64,000 nt of DNA from Bacteroidota bacterium (GCA_013696965.1 JACCXN010000009.1:135754-199753); one strand, 5' to 3'; shown: positions 3,697 to 56,117, counted from the first letter of the stretch. Notes: a model not told the origin generated them from the letters alone. Made by a program: numbers and translations.

Positions 3697-6600
3697 TTAA
3701 CGCATTAGGTACATTTTTCCAAAACCCTTTTGAAAAAACTTGTCAGCCTCCGTGGAATTATGTTCAATGGCTGATCCGTCTATCCTTGTAATAACTCTGT
3801 AAAGGTAAACTCCGTTTGCAAGTAAATCTCCGAACTCATCTCTTCCATTCCAGGCAAATTCAGTAATGTTCCTGCCAATATGAATAGGACCTAATTCATC
3901 CTTATGTATTTCCCTTACAATTTTTCCGGAAACCGTCATAATTTGAATTTTAAAATGAGATGGAATTGTGGAGCCAGTAAGTGTGAAAACGAAACGTGTA
4001 GAGGTAGAAAACGGATTTGGAAAATTCAAAACCTCGGTAATGGTGGATTTATTTATGACTTCAAAACTAATAACATAGTCAAAATCCCCGGATTTATTAT
4101 CTGACCTATCGCTTGCCTTTATCCTTAACTCGTATTTACCATCTTTAGTAAATTGAGGCTGAAGTTCTATTTTGCAACTATTTTTAGGGAGAATAGCTGG
4201 TACAAATCTCATTGGTTCTTGTCCTGGTGCTTCAAAATACAATCTTTTTTGTTCCGATTCAGGATCTGTAAGATAAATGGCAAAGCTTGAGGTATCATTA
4301 AGTGCAAGGAATCTGTTTTCATCCTTTAACTGAACAACAATAAAGGGTTTGGCAGAAACAATATCACCATTAAGAATATGCACTCCATCGAAAGTAACAT
4401 CAAGCATAGGATTGATTTTATCCCTGCCAACAAAAAAGCCTAATTGAGCCTTGTTGTTGAAATGGTATTGCTCTAATTGCCAATTTTCATCTTTAGGATT
4501 TATTTCTACCCAAAGGTTGTTGTAACCGGGAAATCCAATAGTTGAAAGCTCTATTGAGGTTATCAATATGCTGTCTGCAGGAAGATGAGCTAATTTTTTA
4601 TATTCTAAAGGAAGAATATTGCGTGATATATCTTCCACCCAGTAATTCACATTAATGCTGTCCATATCAACATTACTTATATTTTGAATTGCTATTCTGA
4701 ATTTAATCTTATCTCCCTCCTCAATTGTATCGGCATGAAAATAAAAATTTCTGGAAGCATTTAAGGCCGCTTCTGGAATTTCGTCAAAAAGCAATTGCCA
4801 TCGCTTAAACTGGGCAGGTGTACTGGTTACCTCATCCCTTAAATTCGCTTTTAACCTTAAATAGGGATAAGAAGCCGCATCAATATTTAAATTGTAAATG
4901 TCTGTGTTCGTATTGTCAACATTCATCAACAGAGTTTCATTCCCATAAATATCAATCCCGGAAATATCAACACTAACATCATCGTTGGATGGCATTTCAA
5001 GACTTTGCTGTCTCCAATGAAATGAATGCCATTCCTTTGCCGGTCCTGCCACTACGGAACTAAGCCCTCCGGAAGGCAAATTGCGTTCAATATCTGTAGT
5101 AAGATTAATCGAACTGAATTTATTGCTTCCAATAACCGTTTTGGCAGAAGCTATAAGGCCTTTTTGAACAAAAAAGATGAAAGGAAGACTATCTGAATTG
5201 GTTAACAAGGAAGCATCGGCACCTAAATTTTGAAATGCGGAATGAACATTTGCATTCCATTGAGTACACATGGGATTAAAAACTGAATAGGCAAGTATGT
5301 AATGCCCATTAGGAACCGAATTTTCAATCATATCCACCATTGCATCCATTTGACTGGTTACAGAAGGATAAAAGATAAAATATTTACTGTCTCTACAACC
5401 CGGACCCGGATTCACATTATATTGAGGTTTTTCGATTGTTGACCAGGATTCAAGGGTAAGTGGATCAATAACCGCAATATGAATAGCAGGTGCCCAACCG
5501 CAAGAGGCGTAATCTTGGGTTTCAGCATCAATTTTAAACATCACAGAATATGTTTCTTCTATAGTTGAAGCATTGCCCCTGTTTGAACAAATGAGCTGTT
5601 TGAAAAAACTTTGAAACTGGAACTCACGCTGAATTCTGTTATAACCAATAAAATTAAAATCATTGTTTTTAAACTGGAAAAAGTGGGCCTGCCCCCAGCC
5701 TGACTTATCTTTGATATACTGAAAGGAACTTTCTCTCCACCTTAGGTCCAAAGCAGGTTCTATTAATGGACTTGCCCTCCAGAAATAAACCATACTATCT
5801 GGCATGTTTTTCAATAAATTTGGCGACCAGTGCAACACCCCTCCACTGTGTGTTATTTCAGCTTTCTCTTTAATTGGGCTGTTGAACAAATCTGTAGTAT
5901 CAACTTCTAAAATATATTTTTTTGATTGAGCAAAAGCATTTGCTGTATTTGCCTTTAAGGTTATGCCTTGATTGGGAACAATTGAGTAATGATAAGGATA
6001 AACAGGGAGAATATCAGAGGAGGAAATTTGCAGACTCAAGGTTGTTTTATTGTTTATTTCGCTGATTTCATCAATTAATAAGGTATTGTCTGCAAAAACT
6101 GAAAAAATATTTTCCCCGGGTCCCTTTTCATTCTCAACAGGAAGTCGAAAAACCAAAGTGTCCTTATAATTTATTCCATATTTTAAGGCTAATTCTTTCT
6201 TTATAGAGCCATCCGGAAATTTTCTTGCTAATTCAATTGAAAAAAAATTATTAAAAGCACGACCTGTATTTGTTAAAATTACATTTACATCAAAAGAATC
6301 TATTTCTGTTGTAACATTTGATGGTGTAAAAAAAACATTTTGCTTGCTCACCACTACATCCGGTTTTTTGTATGAATTAATTGAAAGGGCAGGGTCTCCA
6401 TGCAATGTCATTTGAAGGCATAAAGTTTTATTCATATAATTGTTTGCAACCTGGATTTCTTTTACTGTTTCTTTCATAACAGTTCCAATACTTTCACCGT
6501 ATTTATAATTCCCAATGTTGTGATAAAACCTGGTGCTGTATGAATGAAGTAAATTAGGAAAACCCAAGCCTACATTTGCTACAAACGCAATTACCCCTTT

Positions 6601-8664
6601 GTCGGCAATAAGTACAAAAGATTCACTTGTGCTAATGGATGTTGTTAAATGAATATTTCCGGCAAAACAAGAATTGGCAAGCAAAATGGGGTACTTTTTA
6701 TGGTTATTATAGGTAGCCGGATCATCTATGTTAATATCAAATCCATTTGCGGAAGCATGTCCAAAAAAAGTCATTAGGGAAACCCCAGATTCCAATTTGT
6801 TTTTAATTACATTGGCAAGTGTATTGTCAATTGGTGCTGAAGAGTTTTTATCAAAGGTTGTAACAATTCCACCAAAGAGGGTATCTTCAATAATATTCTC
6901 ATAGGAGTTCATATATTGGGTAAAAGCTTGGTGTTCACTTGCATTTGCGCCTCCTCTAAAATGCAAAACTGATTTCATCCATTCCTCAGGAATAGAATAT
7001 CCTTCATATTCAAGCATTTTTTTATGGTAAATTTTTACTTCATTGGCATTCTTAGCTGCAAGTCTTCCTGTAGCAATTGCAGGTTCATACATTGCGCCAT
7101 TTAAACCTGCTGTTAACAATGCATCTGATGATGCCATGCCGTATGTTGGAACAAGACATTTTTCATAATAGGATGGACTTTTGCGTGAGTCTCTTGGATT
7201 AATTGATTTTCCAATTAAAAAGAGATGTTTTGGCTTTACGGTCCACTTGTCCAAAGCAAAATCTGCAAAGTTTTTTATTGAAAGTGGGTGTTTGTATATT
7301 CCATGGGCGAACTGATGGTATAGTTCATCAACATCAACAACCAATGGAATATGGCCCGTTCCTGACCGGTAATTTGCGTAATCAACTGTTTCCGATTTCA
7401 ATTTTTTAGAGGTAACAAGGAGGTAATCGGCATTGGAATTGAGAAAATTTACAAATTGATTTGTGGCAGGATTAACAGATTCCAGATTTGAAATAGTAGA
7501 AATATAATTCTCAGGCAACAAATAACATTTTTTATCTGATTTTCCTGCAGCTCCATTTGGAATTATCACCTTATAAAGTCCGCCACTATAATAGGTTTTT
7601 ATTTTTCTGGCATTTGTAATATCATATACATAAACATCTGATAAAGGATTGTAATTCTGAAATTCAAGCAGTGTTTTTCCCTGTGAAAGGTTATCCTGAA
7701 CAATCATTTCAAAAACATTAACATTTAAAAAATTCATTGAATGCGGATAAATTAGGGAGGCCCATGCAATTGTGGTTCGGTTTCCCACAAAAGCGGTATA
7801 TACAAATTCAGTTGTTTCGCTATGAAGAGATCCAGGTAGGATCGTCTTGTTAATTATATTTTTCTCATACCCGTGGTATTGAACATCGGCAAGAGAAGCG
7901 TAAGTTCCAAGAGAATTTTTAAAATCAATTTTGGTATGATGATCGGGAAAGGTGTTTGCATCTCTTGAAGCTCCAATAACAATAGTTTTAAATTCAGCAG
8001 CAGGTCCAGATAAATACGCATTGGGGGTGGGAAAAAATTTAACTCCAGTTCCTCCTTCACCGATAACCGAATTAAACCAGCCCTCTGACTTGGTGTAATC
8101 TGGATCACTGTCTCCAGCAGAGACCGTTTCTCCTAAAAAATATTCAGTCGTGTAGCTTTGAATGTTTTGCTTTAACACATAAGGAAATGGTGTAAAATCA
8201 CTAAAATTAGCAGCATCCTCATACTGAATTCTTTCATTGTTAATGGATTCACTCCAGGTAATGTAATAAATTGCTGTATCGTTAATCAGGCTATAATAGG
8301 GATTGGGTTGGTCGCTTTGGGTACTGTACATAAATTTATCCATGTACCCATCGTTTTTTTGAGCATAAAATTCTATATAATCATTGCCGTCAAGAACGTA
8401 TTGGTCTCCTTCATCTTTAATAAATAATGGAACTTGTTCTCCTCTAGCAAAAAGCTGGATTTTTCGATGATCTATTCCTTGCAAAGCTACTCCTGCATTC
8501 GAAAGGGAGTTAGAGAGCGTTGAAGCGCTAATCCGGTAAATGTTGTTTTGAGTTATTTTGAAAAAAAAATACTTCTGATTATAGTTAATCCATTCGTTGC
8601 CGTATGGTTGTGCGAGGGCAGACGTATATGCAAACAAACAAAATATCAATAGATTTTTTTTCAC
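3697..8664 (-). CDS. porU2: PorU2-like C25 (gingipain-type) peptidase with T9SS-type C-terminal domain
   Basis: 1655 aa with a signal peptide (MKKNLLIFCLFAYTSALAQ). The middle carries a caspase-fold C25 peptidase domain with the catalytic pair visible: FFGHAS with H636 and ANSCFAG with C666, a spacing like that of gingipains. Long Ig-like and beta-rich segments follow. The last ~110 residues form a FlgD-like sorting domain (NPFSTSTRF, then DLLANGVYLYRV). PorU is the sortase that cleaves T9SS signals and attaches cargo to A-LPS, but classical PorU is about 1150 aa. Its size and its partner fit the longer form called PorU2 in Bacteroidota. It overlaps porV2 by 4 bp, so the two are translated together. 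Substrate unknown. Confidence 0.85.
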   Translation of the reverse strand: MKKNLLIFCLFAYTSALAQPYGNEWINYNQKYFFFKITQNNIYRISASTLSNSLSNAGVALQGIDHRKIQLFARGEQVPLFIKDEGDQYVLDGNDYIEFYAQKNDGYMDKFMYSTQSDQPNPYYSLINDTAIYYITWSESINNERIQYEDAANFSDFTPFPYVLKQNIQSYTTEYFLGETVSAGDSDPDYTKSEGWFNSVIGEGGTGVKFFPTPNAYLSGPAAEFKTIVIGASRDANTFPDHHTKIDFKNSLGTYASLADVQYHGYEKNIINKTILPGSLHSETTEFVYTAFVGNRTTIAWASLIYPHSMNFLNVNVFEMIVQDNLSQGKTLLEFQNYNPLSDVYVYDITNARKIKTYYSGGLYKVIIPNGAAGKSDKKCYLLPENYISTISNLESVNPATNQFVNFLNSNADYLLVTSKKLKSETVDYANYRSGTGHIPLVVDVDELYHQFAHGIYKHPLSIKNFADFALDKWTVKPKHLFLIGKSINPRDSRKSPSYYEKCLVPTYGMASSDALLTAGLNGAMYEPAIATGRLAAKNANEVKIYHKKMLEYEGYSIPEEWMKSVLHFRGGANASEHQAFTQYMNSYENIIEDTLFGGIVTTFDKNSSAPIDNTLANVIKNKLESGVSLMTFFGHASANGFDINIDDPATYNNHKKYPILLANSCFAGNIHLTTSISTSESFVLIADKGVIAFVANVGLGFPNLLHSYSTRFYHNIGNYKYGESIGTVMKETVKEIQVANNYMNKTLCLQMTLHGDPALSINSYKKPDVVVSKQNVFFTPSNVTTEIDSFDVNVILTNTGRAFNNFFSIELARKFPDGSIKKELALKYGINYKDTLVFRLPVENEKGPGENIFSVFADNTLLIDEISEINNKTTLSLQISSSDILPVYPYHYSIVPNQGITLKANTANAFAQSKKYILEVDTTDLFNSPIKEKAEITHSGGVLHWSPNLLKNMPDSMVYFWRASPLIEPALDLRWRESSFQYIKDKSGWGQAHFFQFKNNDFNFIGYNRIQREFQFQSFFKQLICSNRGNASTIEETYSVMFKIDAETQDYASCGWAPAIHIAVIDPLTLESWSTIEKPQYNVNPGPGCRDSKYFIFYPSVTSQMDAMVDMIENSVPNGHYILAYSVFNPMCTQWNANVHSAFQNLGADASLLTNSDSLPFIFFVQKGLIASAKTVIGSNKFSSINLTTDIERNLPSGGLSSVVAGPAKEWHSFHWRQQSLEMPSNDDVSVDISGIDIYGNETLLMNVDNTNTDIYNLNIDAASYPYLRLKANLRDEVTSTPAQFKRWQLLFDEIPEAALNASRNFYFHADTIEEGDKIKFRIAIQNISNVDMDSINVNYWVEDISRNILPLEYKKLAHLPADSILITSIELSTIGFPGYNNLWVEINPKDENWQLEQYHFNNKAQLGFFVGRDKINPMLDVTFDGVHILNGDIVSAKPFIVVQLKDENRFLALNDTSSFAIYLTDPESEQKRLYFEAPGQEPMRFVPAILPKNSCKIELQPQFTKDGKYELRIKASDRSDNKSGDFDYVISFEVINKSTITEVLNFPNPFSTSTRFVFTLTGSTIPSHFKIQIMTVSGKIVREIHKDELGPIHIGRNITEFAWNGRDEFGDLLANGVYLYRVITRIDGSAIEHNSTEADKFFQKGFGKMYLMR

Positions 8665-9740
8665 CTGTTCTCTCGGTTAATGTCAAATTTTAAAGAAAAT
8701 ATATTGGAATAAAGGGCAACAGACTGATCACCTATATCAGTTAGTGCATAATCAATGGTAATTCCTTTTATTTTTACACCTATGCCCATGTTTGGCTGCA
8801 TACTAGTTTGTTTGTTTTTATCAAGATCGGTTTGTTGTTGAATATTTCCAATACCAGCCCTTAAAAACACGAATCCTCCATAGCCAATCTCTAATCCCAA
8901 ATGGGGATCAATACTAACGGCATTGCTTTTAATAAGAACATTTCTTTTTCTGTCAAATGTAAAATCAAAATTTGCCTCTGTAAGCAAAGTAAATTTTTCT
9001 TTGATTTTATAGGTTCTTGCTGCTCCTACCAGTAGTTTTGGTAAAGTAACTTCTACTGAATTTTGAGGTATTTCATTTCCTGTTCTATTAAATACATCAA
9101 TTGTTTCCTGGTTCAATGTATAGCTCCAGGCATTGAATGTGGAGGTTACATCTCTTGCCATTGCTCCAAACTTCCAATTGCCTACTTGATACTGGGCACC
9201 GAAGTCTAGTCCAAACCCCCATGCCTTGGCAAAGTCACCCACAATACGATGAATAACCTTTGCATTAGCCCCAAGATGAAGGCCAGGGATTGCTGTTTTT
9301 TTGGCATAAGAGGCAATAAATGCATAATCGGCAGCAGAAAAGGAAGTTATTCTGTCGTAATTAATGTTTCCATTTGCATCAATAAGTTCTGTAGTATTTG
9401 GAATATTATCTACACCGAAACGAATAAAACTAAAACCTAATGCGCTATTCGTATCAAGGGGTGCAGCGAATGCGGCATAATCATATTTAGCAATGCCTGC
9501 AAAATATTCAGCATGCATAAGGGCAACTTGCCTGTTACTCTTAACTCCCAATAAACCTGCAGGATTCCAATATCCAGCGGTTACATCATCAACTGAGGAT
9601 ACATAAGAATTGGACATCCCTAGTGCTCTTGCTCCCACACCTATGGATAAAAATTCGTTACTGTATTTTCTTGCTGTTTGGGCATATACAACAGTAATGC
9701 TTACAAAAAGGATGATTGATAATGCAAGTTTTTTCAACAT
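8661..9740 (-). CDS. porV2: PorV/PorQ-family outer membrane protein (PorV2-like)
   Basis: 359 aa with a signal peptide ending near VYAQ (residues 18-21). The mature start, SNEFLSIGVGARALGMSNSYVSSVDDVTAGYWNPAGL (residues 26-62), is the signature of the PorV/UPF0164 family, with a GARALGMG-like motif and a WNPAGL motif. The rest is a predicted 14-stranded FadL-like barrel of alternating polar and aromatic residues. PorV carries T9SS cargo from the translocon to the PorU sortase. The 4-bp overlap with the PorU-like gene supports a dedicated PorU2-PorV2 pair. No TAnnTTTG box was found directly upstream. Confidence 0.85.
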   Translation of the reverse strand: MLKKLALSIILFVSITVVYAQTARKYSNEFLSIGVGARALGMSNSYVSSVDDVTAGYWNPAGLLGVKSNRQVALMHAEYFAGIAKYDYAAFAAPLDTNSALGFSFIRFGVDNIPNTTELIDANGNINYDRITSFSAADYAFIASYAKKTAIPGLHLGANAKVIHRIVGDFAKAWGFGLDFGAQYQVGNWKFGAMARDVTSTFNAWSYTLNQETIDVFNRTGNEIPQNSVEVTLPKLLVGAARTYKIKEKFTLLTEANFDFTFDRKRNVLIKSNAVSIDPHLGLEIGYGGFVFLRAGIGNIQQQTDLDKNKQTSMQPNMGIGVKIKGITIDYALTDIGDQSVALYSNIFSLKFDINRENR

Positions 9741-10035: not shown

Positions 10036-11133
10036 ATGGCGCTAATAAAAAGAATAATCCTTTTTTGTGCGATATTATTTTCAAGTAGTTCTTCAATTGC
10101 ACAGCCTTTAAATAATTTTTTTCAGGTGCTCTTTAAATCAATTGATGGTTCCCCAGCAAAAGAGTGGGTTGAATTTGAAAAAACGGATAAGAAAACCTGT
10201 CAGGAAAAGGTATTTGCACCTACTCCACTTTTAATTGAATTGGAATTACAAGGGCTTGGTTTTACAAACATCCAGGAATGGGACAAGTGGCGGGACTTTT
10301 TTTGCAAAAACAAAAACAGTACTTCTTTACTTATCGCTTTATCTGAGGCTTACTTCCCACATACTGATAGCGTTTTAAAAGCTGCCGGACTTCCTTATGT
10401 TTTTAGATATCTTCCCGTAGTTTTATCTGCTATGAATCCAAATACACAATGGAAATCGGGAGCTGGTTTATGGCATTTATATATTCCCTATATGGTTAAT
10501 TCAGGTTTAATAATAGCTCCTGATTATGACCAAAGACTTGATCCAAAAAAATCTGCTTTAATAGCTTCTAAACGTTTGAAGTTTTTGCATGACAAAGAAA
10601 AAAACATTAAAAAAACTTTGCTTGCCTATACATTTGGTCCTTTTTCACAAACCAGTAAATCCAATTCATACACTGAGGAAGATTTGCTCGAAGCTTTTGC
10701 GGCAATAGTTTATTTATTTGAAAACAAAACGGAATTAAATTTTCCTGTTGCAAATTTAAAACTACCTAAAACCAAACAATTCTTATTGATAGATTCTATT
10801 CAATTGAATATGGATAAATCTCCTTTTAACCTTAATTCAATTGCTTTATTAAACCCTGCAAATGTTACCGGATATTACAGAGCCGGGGGAATTATTACTG
10901 TTTTACAACAAGACGAAGAGGCCTTTGAAAAATGGCTAAACAACCCTGTTGTTGAACAAGAGCAACAAAAAGCAATTGCTGTTGAAAAAAAATTTTACAA
11001 AGTTAAATCAGGTGATACATTATCTGAAATTGCCACCAAATATAATGTGACAACACAGGATCTAATGCAATGGAACAGCCTTAACTCATCCAGAATTAAT
11101 ATTGGCCAGGAATTAATTATATATGTAAAGTAG
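10036..11133 (+). CDS. LysM protein with degenerate MltD-like transglycosylase domain
   Basis: 365 aa from the ATG at 10036, chosen because it opens a signal peptide (MALIKRIILF ... SSIAQ) downstream of the promoter; the frame stays open farther upstream to 9781. Residues ~115-205 align with the SLT domain of MltD: LPVVLSAMNP matches LPIVESAFDP, and SGAGLWHLY matches the family GIWQ segment. The catalytic glutamate is replaced by L130, and the later AAYNSGEG motif is replaced by LAYTFGPF. A LysM domain occupies residues ~317-365 (FYKVKSGDTLSEIATKYNV). It should bind peptidoglycan but probably does not cleave it. It leads the operon with two SGNH proteins and an MBOAT protein. Confidence 0.85.
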   Translation: MALIKRIILFCAILFSSSSSIAQPLNNFFQVLFKSIDGSPAKEWVEFEKTDKKTCQEKVFAPTPLLIELELQGLGFTNIQEWDKWRDFFCKNKNSTSLLIALSEAYFPHTDSVLKAAGLPYVFRYLPVVLSAMNPNTQWKSGAGLWHLYIPYMVNSGLIIAPDYDQRLDPKKSALIASKRLKFLHDKEKNIKKTLLAYTFGPFSQTSKSNSYTEEDLLEAFAAIVYLFENKTELNFPVANLKLPKTKQFLLIDSIQLNMDKSPFNLNSIALLNPANVTGYYRAGGIITVLQQDEEAFEKWLNNPVVEQEQQKAIAVEKKFYKVKSGDTLSEIATKYNVTTQDLMQWNSLNSSRINIGQELIIYVK

Positions 11134-11140
11134 GTAAATA

Positions 11141-12619
11141 ATGAAGCCGACAAAAATAGTCTATTTTATTTGTTTTGTTTTCCTCTTGCTTTTTCTTGTA
11201 ATGGCTATTATGCCATCGGGGGGATATACTATTTACGGTGATTTTAAACTTAAATTTCCTACACTTGCTGGTTTTTTTATTCCAGAGCATACTGAGAAAA
11301 AAGATATTTCCTTTATTATTGAGGACATTCCTACTGAATCTCTTTATTTGAATGTAAGCCTTGATAGTCATTCCGATTCTCTCCAAATGGCAGTGAATGA
11401 TTCTCTTCGTCAAACTTTATCAAAAATTCAATATCCGGGAGGCGACAGAAGTATTTTATACAGTTTTTTTGAAAAATTAAATTTGGCGTCAACTTCAAAA
11501 AGCCGCGTAAGAATTATGCATTACGGAGATTCTCAATTAGAGGGTGACAGAATAACAGGAATAATCCGACAAAAACTACAAGGTGATTTTAGTGGAGATG
11601 GACCAGGAATGTTTCCTATTATCCCTGTTTCAACTAAAGACTGGTCGAACAACAAATATTCTGACAACTGGAAACGATACACAGGATTTGGAAACATTGA
11701 TACCAGTGTAAACCATAAAAACTATGGTGCTTTGCTTACCTTTTCAAGGTTCACTGATTTTAATGCTGATTCACTACGTGCAGATACCGCCTTTCATTAT
11801 GCCTGGTTTGAAATAACTCCTTCATCAAGACCTGGTTCAAAGAGTTCGATATTTAGAGAAATAACTATGTTTTATGATAATTGCACAATGCCGGTATTTA
11901 TCCAGGTTTTTAAAGACAATGAACTTGTAAGGGAAGATTTATTGCCGGTTTCAAATGTGCTCTCCCAATACAAAATTGTTTTTGATTCACCTGCATCTAC
12001 AATCAAATTTACATTTAAAACAAAAATAAGCCCAGACATCCTGGGATTTTCAATTTCATCTCCCACTGGAATAATTGCCGACAATATTCCTATAAGAGGT
12101 GGTTCAGGAACAGAATTTTCAAAAATAAACAGGGAACATTTATCCAGAATGCTAAACATGCTGCAACCAGATTTGTTCATCATGCAATTTGGAGGGAATG
12201 TTTTGCCCTATATTGATTCAGAAAAAGAATGTAAGGATTATGGTGAGTGGTTGGAGGCGCATTTAAGATTGATAAAAAAAATGATTCCAAAAGCAGATGT
12301 AATTTTAATCGGCCCGGCTGATATGTCAATAAAAGAAGGGGATGAATATATTACACATCCTTTTCTGGAACAAGTTCGGGATGCATTAAAAAATGCAGCA
12401 TTTAATACTGGATCGGCCTATTGGGATATGTATGAGGCAATGGGTGGAAAAAACTCAATGCCTTTATGGGTGGATGCAGAACCTGCTCTTGCTGCAAAGG
12501 ATTACATTCATTTTTCAACAAAGGGAGCCTCAAAAATTGCCGGAATGTTTTATGAAACCTTTTCAAATGATTATAAAAAATGGAAACAAAAACACAAGAA
12601 TGAAAAAACAATCCCTTAG
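11141..12619 (+). CDS. SGNH/GDSL hydrolase-like protein, membrane-anchored
   Basis: 492 aa with one N-terminal membrane anchor (residues 5-25) and a periplasmic remainder. SGNH blocks are visible: block I MHYGDSQLEG with nucleophile S131, block III QFGGN, and block V DYIHFS with D454 and H457. Such proteins next to MBOAT acyltransferases pass on or remove O-acetyl groups on glycans (PatB, AlgJ/AlgX type). It starts 7 bp after the LysM gene, and its 3' end overlaps the next SGNH gene by 20 bp. Whether it is a transferase or an esterase cannot be told from the sequence. Confidence 0.82.
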   Translation: MKPTKIVYFICFVFLLLFLVMAIMPSGGYTIYGDFKLKFPTLAGFFIPEHTEKKDISFIIEDIPTESLYLNVSLDSHSDSLQMAVNDSLRQTLSKIQYPGGDRSILYSFFEKLNLASTSKSRVRIMHYGDSQLEGDRITGIIRQKLQGDFSGDGPGMFPIIPVSTKDWSNNKYSDNWKRYTGFGNIDTSVNHKNYGALLTFSRFTDFNADSLRADTAFHYAWFEITPSSRPGSKSSIFREITMFYDNCTMPVFIQVFKDNELVREDLLPVSNVLSQYKIVFDSPASTIKFTFKTKISPDILGFSISSPTGIIADNIPIRGGSGTEFSKINREHLSRMLNMLQPDLFIMQFGGNVLPYIDSEKECKDYGEWLEAHLRLIKKMIPKADVILIGPADMSIKEGDEYITHPFLEQVRDALKNAAFNTGSAYWDMYEAMGGKNSMPLWVDAEPALAAKDYIHFSTKGASKIAGMFYETFSNDYKKWKQKHKNEKTIP

Positions 12620-13841
12620 TATATTTATATTCTTTTTATCTGTTCTTTTTAAAAACCTGCTCTTTGCCCAGGCATCTCCTTTTACAATGGAGAACTATCC
12701 ATTTGTAAACAAGCAATACAACAAAATAAATATTTATGGCTCAGACAAAAAGTACAAAAACTTATATTCGAAAATGGAAAAAATGCTGCTTACAGGGCAG
12801 GGAAATATAAAAATTGTTCATTTTGGTGGCTCGCATATACAAGCAGACATGTGGTCAGGTCAGACAAGAAACCTTCTTCAGGAACTAATGCCGGGATCAT
12901 CGGGTGAAAGAGGCTTTTTGTTTCCTTTTACAATGGCCAAAACAAACAGTCCATATCACTATCAAATTGATTATACAGGAAGTTGGACAGCATGCAGAAA
13001 TGCAGAAAAAAGCAAAGATTGTTTGTTGGGTTTATCAGGTATATCAGTAACAACTTATGATTCAATTTCTACAGTAAAAATATATTTTAGGGAAGGCCAG
13101 CCGGCCTCTTATTATCATCAAAGAATAAAAATATTTCATCATTTAACCGATTCCTCTTTTGCAATTTTTCCTTTAAATTCAGGCAAATTCAAGGAAATTA
13201 ATGATCCTAAAAATGGATTTACGGAGTTTGTTTTTGATCAAAAAAAAGACACTTTAGAATTTGAAATAAGAAAAACAGCTCAACAACAAAACTATTTTAC
13301 TCTTTTCGGAATTAGTTTAGAAAATGATGAGCCAGGGTTTACTTATACCTCCATTGGGGTAAACGGTGCAAGTGTACCCTCTTATAACCGTTGCAGCTTA
13401 TTAGCAACTCATTTAAAAGTACTCAAACCTGATTTGATTTTGTTTTCAATAGGAATAAATGATGTGCATGAGGGAGACTTTACAGAAGAAAAATACATGC
13501 AAAATTACGACACCCTTATTTTAAATATCCGGGCATTAATGCCTGATGTAGCAATTTTATTCACTACCAATACAGATAGTTATTACAAGAAGAAGTTTCC
13601 AAATAAAAAATCAGTAGAAGCAAGCCAGGCAATGGTGAAATTAGCTGAAAAACACGGAGCAGGAGTCTGGGATTTACTGAATGTAATGGGTGGTGTTGGT
13701 TCAATAAAAGAATGGGAAAAACAAGGAATGGCAAAAAGGGATCTTATCCATCTTACTCCAAACGGTTACAAAATAATTGGAAATTTAATGTATAATGCAC
13801 TATTAAAATCATATATACAATACAGTATTGGAAACCCTTGA
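12600..13841 (+). CDS. SGNH/GDSL hydrolase-like protein, secreted
   Basis: 413 aa from the ATG at 12600, which opens a signal peptide (MKKQSLSIFIFFLSVLF ... LFAQA); the frame is open upstream but runs through the previous gene. Block I is VHFGGSHIQ with nucleophile S78, block III contains SIGINDVH, and block V is DLIHLTPNGY with D381 and H384, so the triad looks complete. It overlaps the preceding SGNH gene by 20 bp and the MBOAT gene by 14 bp, a sign of translational coupling. It is only distantly similar to the upstream SGNH protein, so the two are likely to have different jobs. Confidence 0.83.
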   Translation: MKKQSLSIFIFFLSVLFKNLLFAQASPFTMENYPFVNKQYNKINIYGSDKKYKNLYSKMEKMLLTGQGNIKIVHFGGSHIQADMWSGQTRNLLQELMPGSSGERGFLFPFTMAKTNSPYHYQIDYTGSWTACRNAEKSKDCLLGLSGISVTTYDSISTVKIYFREGQPASYYHQRIKIFHHLTDSSFAIFPLNSGKFKEINDPKNGFTEFVFDQKKDTLEFEIRKTAQQQNYFTLFGISLENDEPGFTYTSIGVNGASVPSYNRCSLLATHLKVLKPDLILFSIGINDVHEGDFTEEKYMQNYDTLILNIRALMPDVAILFTTNTDSYYKKKFPNKKSVEASQAMVKLAEKHGAGVWDLLNVMGGVGSIKEWEKQGMAKRDLIHLTPNGYKIIGNLMYNALLKSYIQYSIGNP

Positions 13842-15522
13842 ACAGTTTTTAATTCTTTTTTTCAGTAAGGAAAACTTTGCTCGGATTTTTCTTTTTTCGG
13901 AAGAAACGCCCTTGCTTTTCACGCGCTTTTTTTTCTGGGCGTTTTTCGCTCTTGTAATGGTTTTTTTATCCCTATTTCACAAGAGAATATGGCTGAGAAA
14001 TGCTTTCCTGTTTTTTGTGAGTCTCTTTTTTTATTATAAAACCAGCGGTCTTTTCATTTCCATCCTTCTTTTTTCCACACTATGCGATTACACACTCGGA
14101 TTAAGCATCTATAAAATGCAAAAAAAATCCTGGAAAATGTTGCTCACAGCTTTAAGTATTGTCATTAATTTATTTGTGCTTGCTTATTTTAAATATGCAT
14201 ACTTTTTTACAGATTCTTACAACGCATTATTTTCCACCAAAATTGAAATTTTCAACCATTTTGCTCATTGGTCCAATATTGCCTCAGGAAGTCAATATCA
14301 GGTAAATTCTATTTTATTACCCGTTGGTATTTCTTTTTTTACATTTCAAACCATTAGTTATTCCATTGATGTTTACAGAGAAAGAATTAATCCTGTGCGG
14401 AACATAATGGATTTTGGTTTTTATGTGAGCTTCTTTCCCCAATTGGTGGCAGGGCCCATTGTTCGTGCAAATGAATTCATACCTCAATTATATAAACCTT
14501 ATGATCTGGATAAAAAAGCATTCGGATTGGCCGTTTTTATGATTTTAAATGGAATGGTCAAGAAATTAGTTCTTGGAGATTATATAGCAGTAAATTTTAT
14601 TGATCGTGTGTTTGATAATCCTTTGTTTTTTACTGGTTTTGAAAATTTACTCGCATTATTTGGGTATAGTTTACAAGTATATGCAGATTTTTCAGGATAT
14701 ACGGATATGGCAATAGGTATTGCTCTACTTATGGGCTTTCGATTGCCCAAGAACTTCAATTCTCCTTATAAGGCAAAAAACCTGGGTGAATTTTGGCAAC
14801 GCTGGCATATATCCTTGTCAACCTGGCTAAAAGATTATTTATATATTCCTTTAGGAGGAAATCGCAAAGCCTCTGCATTTACCTGGATTTGTTGCATTTC
14901 TATTTTATCTATAGTTTTATTATTATCTGATGATATCTGGTTGAGAATATCCATTGCCAGCTTTGCTGGTGTTTTCGGATTAATGATGTTGTTGGTTTTG
15001 TCTTTCAGAAAATGGATGGTAACCAACATAAATTTAATGCTGACTATGCTCTTGGGTGGATTATGGCATGGAGCCAGTTTTCAATTCATTATTTGGGGGG
15101 CCTTAAATGGAATTGGCCTTGTTGTTTATAAAAACTGGAAAAAAATAAGCCCTTGGGAAAACAGTACAAGGTGGTTTGCAAACGCTTGGAAAATAGGTCT
15201 TACTTTTATTTTCATCACTTTTACAAGGATTTGGTTTAGGAGTGAAACAATGAATACTTCATTTGACATATTAAACCAGATTTGGAATAATTTCAGACCA
15301 GACCTTATTCTTGAAATATTAGGCTCTTACAAAACTGTTTTTGTAATTATGCTCTCTGGATTTGTTATTCATTGGTTACCTGGTAATTTTAAAGAGGGTT
15401 ATAAAAACTTTTTTTCCAGTATTCCATGGTATGCGCAGGCGGGCATTTCAACTTTAATAATTTTCCTTGTTTATCAATCCCTTTCAGCAAAGCTGCAGCC
15501 CTTTATTTATTTCCAGTTTTAA
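13828..15522 (+). CDS. MBOAT family O-acyltransferase (AlgI/PatA-like)
   Basis: 564 aa polytopic membrane protein. It carries the MBOAT signature FWQRWHISLSTWLKDYLYIP (residues ~330-349) and GGLWHGASF with the presumed catalytic histidine H414. AlgI, PatA and DltB relatives move acetyl or acyl groups across the inner membrane to periplasmic acceptors. The best start is a TTG at 13828, overlapping the upstream gene by 14 bp; there is no good ATG before the first membrane segments. It is the last gene of the operon. With two SGNH partners and a LysM protein, a cell-wall or exopolysaccharide acceptor is likely. Confidence 0.9.
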   Translation: METLEQFLILFFSKENFARIFLFSEETPLLFTRFFFWAFFALVMVFLSLFHKRIWLRNAFLFFVSLFFYYKTSGLFISILLFSTLCDYTLGLSIYKMQKKSWKMLLTALSIVINLFVLAYFKYAYFFTDSYNALFSTKIEIFNHFAHWSNIASGSQYQVNSILLPVGISFFTFQTISYSIDVYRERINPVRNIMDFGFYVSFFPQLVAGPIVRANEFIPQLYKPYDLDKKAFGLAVFMILNGMVKKLVLGDYIAVNFIDRVFDNPLFFTGFENLLALFGYSLQVYADFSGYTDMAIGIALLMGFRLPKNFNSPYKAKNLGEFWQRWHISLSTWLKDYLYIPLGGNRKASAFTWICCISILSIVLLLSDDIWLRISIASFAGVFGLMMLLVLSFRKWMVTNINLMLTMLLGGLWHGASFQFIIWGALNGIGLVVYKNWKKISPWENSTRWFANAWKIGLTFIFITFTRIWFRSETMNTSFDILNQIWNNFRPDLILEILGSYKTVFVIMLSGFVIHWLPGNFKEGYKNFFSSIPWYAQAGISTLIIFLVYQSLSAKLQPFIYFQF

Positions 15523-54158: not shown

Positions 54159-56117
54159 TTATACAGGCTTTTCAACCCAATCTCCATGAATCTTTATTAA
54201 ATCAACCAGGGCATCCACAGCCTCTACCGAAGCAATATTCTTTTTAACAACTTCCCTTCCTTTGTAAAGGGTTATTTTACCAACACCCGTTCCTACATAA
54301 CCATAATCTGCATCAGCCATTTCTCCTGGCCCATTTACTATGCATCCCATGATTCCTATTTTTATCCCTTTAAGATGGTCTGTTACCTGCCGAATACGTG
54401 CAGTGGTTTCTTGTAAATCAAACAAAGTTCTTCCACAAGAAGGACAGGAAATATACTCGGTTTTAGAAATCCTTGTTCTCGTTGCTTGAAGAATATTAAA
54501 TGCTGTATTATTTACATTTTTAAGGCTGCCGCAATCAATTGTCTGAATCCATATTCCATCTCCGAATCCATCAATAAACAAAGAGCCTATATCAGTTCCT
54601 GAATAAAGTTGTAGATTTTCCTCGGTTAGCTGCTTATAATTTCTCCTTATTATTACGGGTTGTGAATTTTCCAATTCATTCAAAAGGAAAAAGAATGCTC
54701 TTTGCTCAGCCATACCATGTTTGGAAAAAGTATCGGCAATCAGAACTGCGGTGTTATCATTCTTAATTTGATTTAAAAACTCACTGCTAATGGTATGAAC
54801 ATCTATAAGAATAAAATTTAATACAGTTGAATGACGCTCAGAAGAAAAATAGTCATTCCAGGAAAAAACAGGATACGCTCCTGGTTTATTAGCAAAAGAT
54901 TTTTTCCAGGTTCCGGCATTATATATTATTCCAAGAGTTCCTGGAGTTTCAAAATCTATTTTATTCTCACCGGCATAAATAAAATCGCAGGCAGAATCTG
55001 CAATATTCCATTTATCAAGAGCAACAGAATAATTATAACCTACAGCAAATAAAGATGCCGCAGTAATTTTCTCTTTATGGCTAAAATCCGCAATTACTCT
55101 TGGAACATTTGATCCGCCAATATTTAATATTTCCCTTGTTTTTCTTTTGCGATATTCAAAAGGATTGTGAATTTCTAATGCCTTTTTATGTACTACTAAT
55201 TCCTTAATTGAGCCACTTCTAGGTTTAATATATCTTTCTATGAGAGCCTTGGCAATAGGAATTTCAAATTCTGGTTCTTCAGTTAAAGAAACCCTAACTG
55301 TGTCCCCTATTCCATCCTCAAGAAGGGCTCCAATTCCAACTGCAGATTTAATCCTTCCGTCTTCTCCCTCCCCTGCTTCAGTTACTCCTAAATGCAAAGG
55401 ATAGTTCATCCCAAACTCCATCATTTTATTAACCAAAAGCCGGTAAGCTTGAACCATAACCTGGGTATTGCTGGCTTTCATGGACAATACAATGTCATAA
55501 TAATTATGATCTTCACAAATCCTCAAAAATTCCAATGCTGATTCCACCATTCCAAGGGGAGTATCTCCATAACGGTTTAAAATCCTATCCGAAAGTGAAC
55601 CATGATTGGTTCCTATTCGCATGGCAGTACCATATTCCTTACAGATTTTAACAAGGGGAACAAACCGTTGGCGAATCCTCTCTAATTCTGCATTGTAAGC
55701 ACTATTGGTGTATTCTATTACCTGAAATTTTTTCTTGTCAACATAATTACCTGGATTTACTCTTACTTTTTCTACAATACGTGCTGCAAGTTCAGCAGCA
55801 TTAGGGGTAAAATGAATATCAGCAACAAGGGGGGTATTATATCCTCTTTTGATTAATTCCTTTTTTATGTTTTCCAGATTCCTGGCCTCGTTCATGCTCG
55901 GTGCTGTAATCCTTACCAGTTCACAGCCGGCCTCTATCATTCGAATTGATTGTTCAACAGTTGCAAAAGTATCCATGGTATCAGTGGTAGTCATGGATTG
56001 AATACGAATTGGATTATCTCCACCTATAGCCAAATTTCCTACCTTGACTACACGTGTCTTAAAACGTGAATATGCATTTAAATCATTACAGTACTGGTTG
56101 GAGGGAATGGTTTTCAT
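54159..56117 (-). CDS. ispG: 4-hydroxy-3-methylbut-2-en-1-yl diphosphate synthase (long form)
   Basis: 652 aa, the long IspG form of Bacteroidota, chlamydiae and plants, with an extra domain (residues ~270-540) between the N-terminal TIM barrel and the C-terminal 4Fe-4S domain. It makes HMBPP, the penultimate step of the non-mevalonate pathway; ispD at the start of the window is in the same route. Visible parts: RIQSMTTTDTMDT near 38, the ADIHFTPN motif near 98, and the cluster cysteines in SCPSCGRTLFDL and GIMGCIVNGPGEM near the end. A good -7 box precedes it. Confidence 0.96.
   Translation of the reverse strand: MKTIPSNQYCNDLNAYSRFKTRVVKVGNLAIGGDNPIRIQSMTTTDTMDTFATVEQSIRMIEAGCELVRITAPSMNEARNLENIKKELIKRGYNTPLVADIHFTPNAAELAARIVEKVRVNPGNYVDKKKFQVIEYTNSAYNAELERIRQRFVPLVKICKEYGTAMRIGTNHGSLSDRILNRYGDTPLGMVESALEFLRICEDHNYYDIVLSMKASNTQVMVQAYRLLVNKMMEFGMNYPLHLGVTEAGEGEDGRIKSAVGIGALLEDGIGDTVRVSLTEEPEFEIPIAKALIERYIKPRSGSIKELVVHKKALEIHNPFEYRKRKTREILNIGGSNVPRVIADFSHKEKITAASLFAVGYNYSVALDKWNIADSACDFIYAGENKIDFETPGTLGIIYNAGTWKKSFANKPGAYPVFSWNDYFSSERHSTVLNFILIDVHTISSEFLNQIKNDNTAVLIADTFSKHGMAEQRAFFFLLNELENSQPVIIRRNYKQLTEENLQLYSGTDIGSLFIDGFGDGIWIQTIDCGSLKNVNNTAFNILQATRTRISKTEYISCPSCGRTLFDLQETTARIRQVTDHLKGIKIGIMGCIVNGPGEMADADYGYVGTGVGKITLYKGREVVKKNIASVEAVDALVDLIKIHGDWVEKPV

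Follow-up and report, generated by a model that had tools for sequence, protein, structure and literature searches.

A degenerate MltD-type lytic transglycosylase at the head of an O-acetylpeptidoglycan gene cluster in Bacteroidota

Gene content of the locus

The sequence analyzed here (the window) is a 64,000-nucleotide stretch from a Bacteroidota bacterium (GCA_013696965.1 JACCXN010000009.1:135754-199753), in which open reading frames and Pfam matches delineate four same-strand genes at positions 10036-15522. In order, these encode a protein with an SLT and a LysM domain, which we term pseudo-MltD, two SGNH proteins (SGNH1 and SGNH2), and an MBOAT O-acyltransferase. The initial annotation described four overlapping or nearly touching genes, and this is what we found: the spacing is +7 bases between pseudo-MltD and SGNH1, -20 between SGNH1 and SGNH2, and -14 between SGNH2 and MBOAT, with all four families recovered by Pfam (SLT, E 6e-7; LysM, E 7e-17; GDSL-type SGNH; and MBOAT). 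Such spacing suggests that the four genes are co-transcribed as a single unit. Scans of promoter and terminator consensus sequences gave chance-level matches only and located no promoter, and an Rfam search of the operon region returned no RNA element.

Pseudo-MltD has lost its catalytic residues and kept the MltD fold

Alignment of the window protein with the solved Pseudomonas aeruginosa MltD (8rhe) using phmmer places LPVVLSAMNP on LPVIESAYNP, with L130 falling at the position of the catalytic Glu. A family profile aligned to 8rhe gave an identical register (E 5e-49). The predicted lack of the catalytic Glu in the SLT domain is thus borne out, with no acidic residue at that position in the sequence alignment to the solved enzyme. 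At the position of the Asn in the AYN motif the window protein has T199, so that neither of the two residues expected of an active lytic transglycosylase is present. Its predicted structure (predicted local distance difference test score, pLDDT, of 80) found MltD structures 8rhe, 8rhf and 8rhi as the top VIA-align matches at Z 17 (17.1). With SLT and LysM domains and an MltD fold, the protein belongs to the MltD family by descent; as judged from sequence and model, it retains that fold and the catalytic residue is gone.

The same pattern extends to its relatives. In an alignment of 42 intact MltDs and 27 pseudo-MltDs, both Glu130 and Asn199 drop from 100% in the intact group to 0% in the dead group, and the Gly just after P202 drops from 98% to 0%. 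By comparison, G144, W146, R167, A197 and N273 are kept by all of the dead proteins and D165 by 96% of them, and the LysM residues W346, N347 and G357 are retained in more than 90% of the dead clade. Among the dead operon-linked proteins the Glu is replaced mostly by Leu, but also by Cys, Ile, Val, Thr, Phe, Gln, Ser, Met or Arg.

Conservation of the cluster and of its upstream slot

Searching public genomes with SGNH1 gave 545 matches, of which the best 80 loci were used; the sample is consequently skewed to close relatives. Many of the genomes analyzed are metagenome-assembled. Among these best 80, SGNH2 lies next to SGNH1 in 75 of 78 loci, followed by MBOAT in 63 of the 67 loci with room for it. 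Of 72 named Bacteroidota loci, 40 have a lytic transglycosylase gene immediately before SGNH1, mostly overlapping it or at most 40 bases away, and in 15 of 42 loci the two genes share a 4-base stop/start overlap. In the taxonomic class of the window, SGNH1 is present in 72 of 149 genomes; a further 39 informative loci from this class include ten with a lytic transglycosylase upstream, seven of which have lost the Glu and three of which are intact. Both the SGNH1-SGNH2-MBOAT triad and the upstream transglycosylase therefore recur in dozens of Bacteroidota genomes, rather than in this one only, which argues against a chance arrangement.

The slot upstream of SGNH1 holds two kinds of lytic transglycosylase: an intact MltD, with both the Glu and the AYN motif, or a pseudo-MltD, with both lost in every member. 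A third kind occurs in one family of the class (loci L070, L201 and L202), where a short lytic transglycosylase without LysM has the Glu and a replaced AYN Asn. The example in L070 (10924-11844, minus strand) groups among ordinary MltDs in the tree, and on this basis looks like an independent recruitment. The occupant of the slot thus need not be dead: an intact MltD is found there in some lineages, and in many the slot holds no transglycosylase.

A single origin by duplication

Both trees unite the pseudo-MltDs in one clade, with 100/99 support when the catalytic columns are removed. We considered long-branch attraction or bias from the catalytic columns as the cause of this grouping; however, after removal of those columns, and of ten rows that were mostly the longest branches, a rebuilt tree still supported the clade at 100/99. 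Some long branches remain, including that of the window protein, whose place inside the clade is unsure. The catalytic loss is therefore common to the whole operon-linked clade and has a single origin.

To this can be added the distribution of intact copies. All eight pseudo-MltD genomes sampled carry an intact MltD elsewhere, the genome of the window also holds one (locus L161, contig C91), and no pseudo-MltD was found in eight sampled genomes in which the operon transglycosylase is intact. In a quick tree, the intact MltDs encoded elsewhere in Prolixibacteraceae with a dead operon gene group with the operon MltDs of Bacteroidales. A separate group of operon-linked intact MltDs was rejected, as these canonical Prolixibacteraceae proteins fall among them, and the intact gene in the same slot is thus simply the MltD of its lineage. 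The dead gene arose by duplication, not by simple decay.

For the dead gene, the ratio of nonsynonymous to synonymous substitution rates (dN/dS) is 0.096 in the one pair measured, from two Maribellus species, indicating purifying selection, and across 91 loci pseudo-MltD is co-inherited with SGNH1 (11 changes versus 26.6 in shuffles).

The SGNH1-SGNH2-MBOAT core and its substrate

The O-acetylpeptidoglycan (OAP) cluster, with the order ape1b-ape1c-pat, has been known in Bacteroides and Porphyromonas since 2005. It is found in B. thetaiotaomicron, B. fragilis and P. gingivalis, with peptidoglycan O-acetylation of 69% in B. fragilis and 27% in B. thetaiotaomicron (PMC1199599). Two Ape1-type SGNH genes followed by MBOAT are also what we observe in the window, and by gene order and family membership the core triad is of this known kind. 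The initial annotation had regarded the four-part arrangement as undescribed; this fails for the core and stands for the lytic transglycosylase at its head, of which we found no description. A search for literature on MltD with MBOAT, or on inactive lytic transglycosylases, found nothing, most subscription journals lying outside the search; within the literature covered, the transglycosylase at the head of an OAP cluster is the new part.

Both SGNH proteins have intact catalytic triads, as had been claimed for them: S131/D454/H457 of SGNH1 is invariant in 18 sequences and S78/D381/H384 of SGNH2 in 14. A profile of SGNH1 matches the solved Ape1 (4k3u) at E 1e-33, and its model superimposes on 4k3u at Z 38.6 (root-mean-square deviation 2.3 over 342 residues), including the inserted beta domain of the solved protein, versus a Z of only about 15-16 for PatB. 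SGNH2 matches 4k3u at E 1e-13, by sequence only. A kinship with AlgJ and AlgX, to which these proteins had been compared, is ruled out: the circularly permuted order (H-S-G-N) that defines AlgJ/AlgX (PMC9487903) is found in neither, the block I Ser preceding the block V Asp and His (S-G-N-H) in both. On sequence, we therefore assign both to the Ape1 family, an assignment that the model also supports for SGNH1. SGNH1 was also rejected as a PatB (DUF459, 13.4 bits versus a Pfam cut-off of 27.2), and a search of the whole genome of the window for DUF459/PatB gave no match. Given this result and a single MBOAT, one of the two Ape1-like proteins would have to be the transferase, if the MBOAT acetylates peptidoglycan.

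The MBOAT is the only one found in the genome of the window. It contains GLWHG, with the conserved His, and its C-terminus has the FxYxxF acyl-shuttle motif of PatA-type proteins, the Tyr of which is acetylated in PatA (PMC12148441). The motif is terminal in 77 of 82 complete relatives; variant ends (FVYFSY, PIYLQF) occur in loci L106, L077, L079 and L080. In L069 (4294-7200, minus strand) and L070 (6654-9500, minus strand), a single protein of about 950 amino acids carries SGNH2 as an N-terminal fusion to MBOAT; both proteins still end in QPFIYFQF, with the shuttle motif at the free C-terminus. The fusions suggest that SGNH2 works beside MBOAT.

Together, the OAP gene order, the Ape1 identity and the FxYxxF motif agree with the O-acetylation role first proposed for these three genes. 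The genes directly upstream of SGNH1 at other loci bear on the substrate. Where the transglycosylase is missing, a GH73 glucosaminidase may be found (L077:9573-10070 and L233:1373-1846, both minus strand); an L,D-transpeptidase is present in L122 and RodA in L072, and other loci have unrelated housekeeping genes. The peptidoglycan enzymes among these neighbors, along with the Ape1 identity of the SGNH proteins, point strongly to peptidoglycan as the substrate.

Feature coordinates are collected in Table 1. For SGNH2, a mechanically called open reading frame beginning at 12393 was replaced by one with a likely ATG start.

Table 1. Features of the four-gene cluster, in window coordinates
Feature	Position	Strand	Description and evidence
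Pseudo-MltD	10036..11133	+	365 aa, ATG start; signal peptide, degenerate SLT (residues 120-211), C-terminal LysM (321-362); Pfam, 8rhe alignment, model
L130 codon (catalytic Glu position of MltD)	10423..10425	+	Alignments
LysM domain of pseudo-MltD	10996..11121	+	Pfam PF01476, E 7e-17
SGNH1, Ape1-family	11141..12619	+	492 aa; N-terminal membrane anchor, inserted beta domain; Pfam, 4k3u match, model
SGNH2, Ape1-related	12600..13841	+	413 aa; signal peptide; Pfam, 4k3u match by sequence
MBOAT O-acyltransferase (PatA-like)	13828..15522	+	564 aa, TTG start; Pfam
Acyl-shuttle hexapeptide FIYFQF (FxYxxF), MBOAT C-terminus	15502..15519	+	Sequence

Downstream of the operon is a gene for a CDP-alcohol phosphatidyltransferase (Pfam). 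Divergent from it (3697-9740, minus strand) are putative PorU- and PorV-like type IX secretion genes, named from sequence; a PorU relative is also encoded near the SGNH1-SGNH2-MBOAT triad in locus L064. Elsewhere in the window, a GcpE (IspG) of 652 amino acids is encoded at 54159-56117 (minus strand), its Pfam match falling in two stretches as in IspG with an inserted domain.

A candidate adaptor for peptidoglycan O-acetylation

In Neisseria, the lytic transglycosylase LtgA binds Ape1 in a complex and raises its activity, including on a substrate that is not one of LtgA's own (PMC7083599). In light of this precedent, the operon looks as if it encodes a transglycosylase partner that kept docking and wall binding and lost cutting. 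We consider it probable, by analogy, that pseudo-MltD is a non-catalytic adaptor or regulator of a peptidoglycan O-acetylation/de-O-acetylation machinery, a catalytically dead MltD paralogue having become joined to the cluster. MBOAT would pass acetyl groups from acetyl-CoA to its own C-terminal Tyr; one Ape1-like SGNH protein would hand them on to O-6 of MurNAc, and the other would probably remove them, a division of labor that we infer. Once exported, pseudo-MltD would hold on to glycan by its LysM domain, and perhaps by the SLT groove, and may serve there as a scaffold that tethers the SGNH proteins to the sacculus and modulates their action, in the way that LtgA acts on Ape1. More tentatively, with the odds slightly against it, the pseudo-transglycosylase family that came from a single MltD duplication may consist of dedicated glycan-reading subunits, which select the sites of wall acetylation and hence of protection against cleavage.

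Several observations weigh against the adaptor interpretation. In the co-inheritance set, 44 of the 91 loci have no transglycosylase upstream though the triad is present, and the absence of pseudo-MltD from many triad lineages implies that the core reaction can proceed without it. Pseudo-MltD also evolves faster than the neighboring genes, and the groove residues E122, Q147, Y198 and N199 are partly or wholly lost in its clade, such that glycan binding by the SLT groove may have been lost.

The main competing explanation, which we regard as unlikely, is that pseudo-MltD regulates intact MltD or other active transglycosylases as a decoy, glycan competitor or partner, and owes its place in the OAP operon solely to the need to balance cutting with acetylation. 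The intact MltD in pseudo-MltD genomes and the retained LysM would fit such a role, but the constant linkage and co-inheritance are with SGNH1, not with intact MltD. A less likely alternative still is that the substrate of the cluster is a different envelope glycan (capsule, lipopolysaccharide or S-layer glycan), with the LysM/SLT protein merely a wall anchor. MBOAT-SGNH pairs do have alginate, cellulose and teichoic acid among their acylation targets (PMC12148441, PMC9487903); however, the SGNH proteins here are of the Ape1 family, the upstream neighbors in other lineages are peptidoglycan enzymes (MltD, glucosaminidase, L,D-transpeptidase and RodA), and in Bacteroides the OAP cluster accompanies O-acetylated peptidoglycan (PMC1199599). 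We think it improbable that the gene is what is left of an operon MltD, now decaying and without function: its lost catalytic residues, fast evolution and loss in many lineages could be read in this way, but after a single ancient loss the reading frame has stayed open across many lineages, with fold and LysM preserved, and the low dN/dS of the Maribellus pair and the 4-base overlaps with SGNH1 also disfavor decay. Continued transglycosylase activity through a different acidic residue is highly improbable. The fold and G144, W146, D165 and R167 remain, but around position 130 the clade has no conserved acidic residue, all of its members lack N199 and the Gly that follows P202, and D165, being equally conserved in intact MltDs, is no substitute catalyst.

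If the adaptor interpretation is correct, a dead transglycosylase tied to acetylation enzymes across the phylum would be a candidate for choosing where peptidoglycan is O-acetylated. The LtgA-Ape1 partnership would then be generalized, and the concept of regulation by dead hydrolases, exemplified by EnvC and NlpD for amidases, would extend to lytic transglycosylases. Cultured environmental hosts are available in Maribellus luteus, Draconibacterium aestuarii and Phaeocystidibacter luteus.

Comparison with known systems

The closest known system is the OAP cluster of Bacteroides and Porphyromonas, in the same phylum, which has two Ape1-family SGNH genes and then MBOAT, as here. Unlike the window, no lytic transglycosylase was reported at its head, and in Bacteroides a cation-efflux gene lies upstream (PMC1199599). 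Neisseria, with patA-patB-ape1 and LtgA, shares an FxYxxF MBOAT and an SGNH esterase that is physically partnered by a transglycosylase (PMC12148441, PMC7083599); the gene order differs, PatB is a DUF459 protein, and LtgA is an active Slt-type enzyme encoded outside the pat operon. MltD itself (8rhe/8rhf) has in common with pseudo-MltD the SLT and LysM domains, the fold, and the GLW and DxRR motifs, but pseudo-MltD has lost the catalytic Glu and the AYN Asn and forms a clade apart from the intact MltDs. The degenerate LytM factors EnvC and NlpD (PMC5533458, PMC8416486) are comparable by analogy only, as dead hydrolase domains that regulate partner wall enzymes; their M23 fold is unrelated and their partners are amidases. 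Finally, the alginate system (AlgI/AlgJ/AlgX) likewise combines one MBOAT with two SGNH-type proteins, but AlgJ and AlgX are circularly permuted, whereas the window proteins keep the S-G-N-H order and the SGNH1 model fits Ape1.

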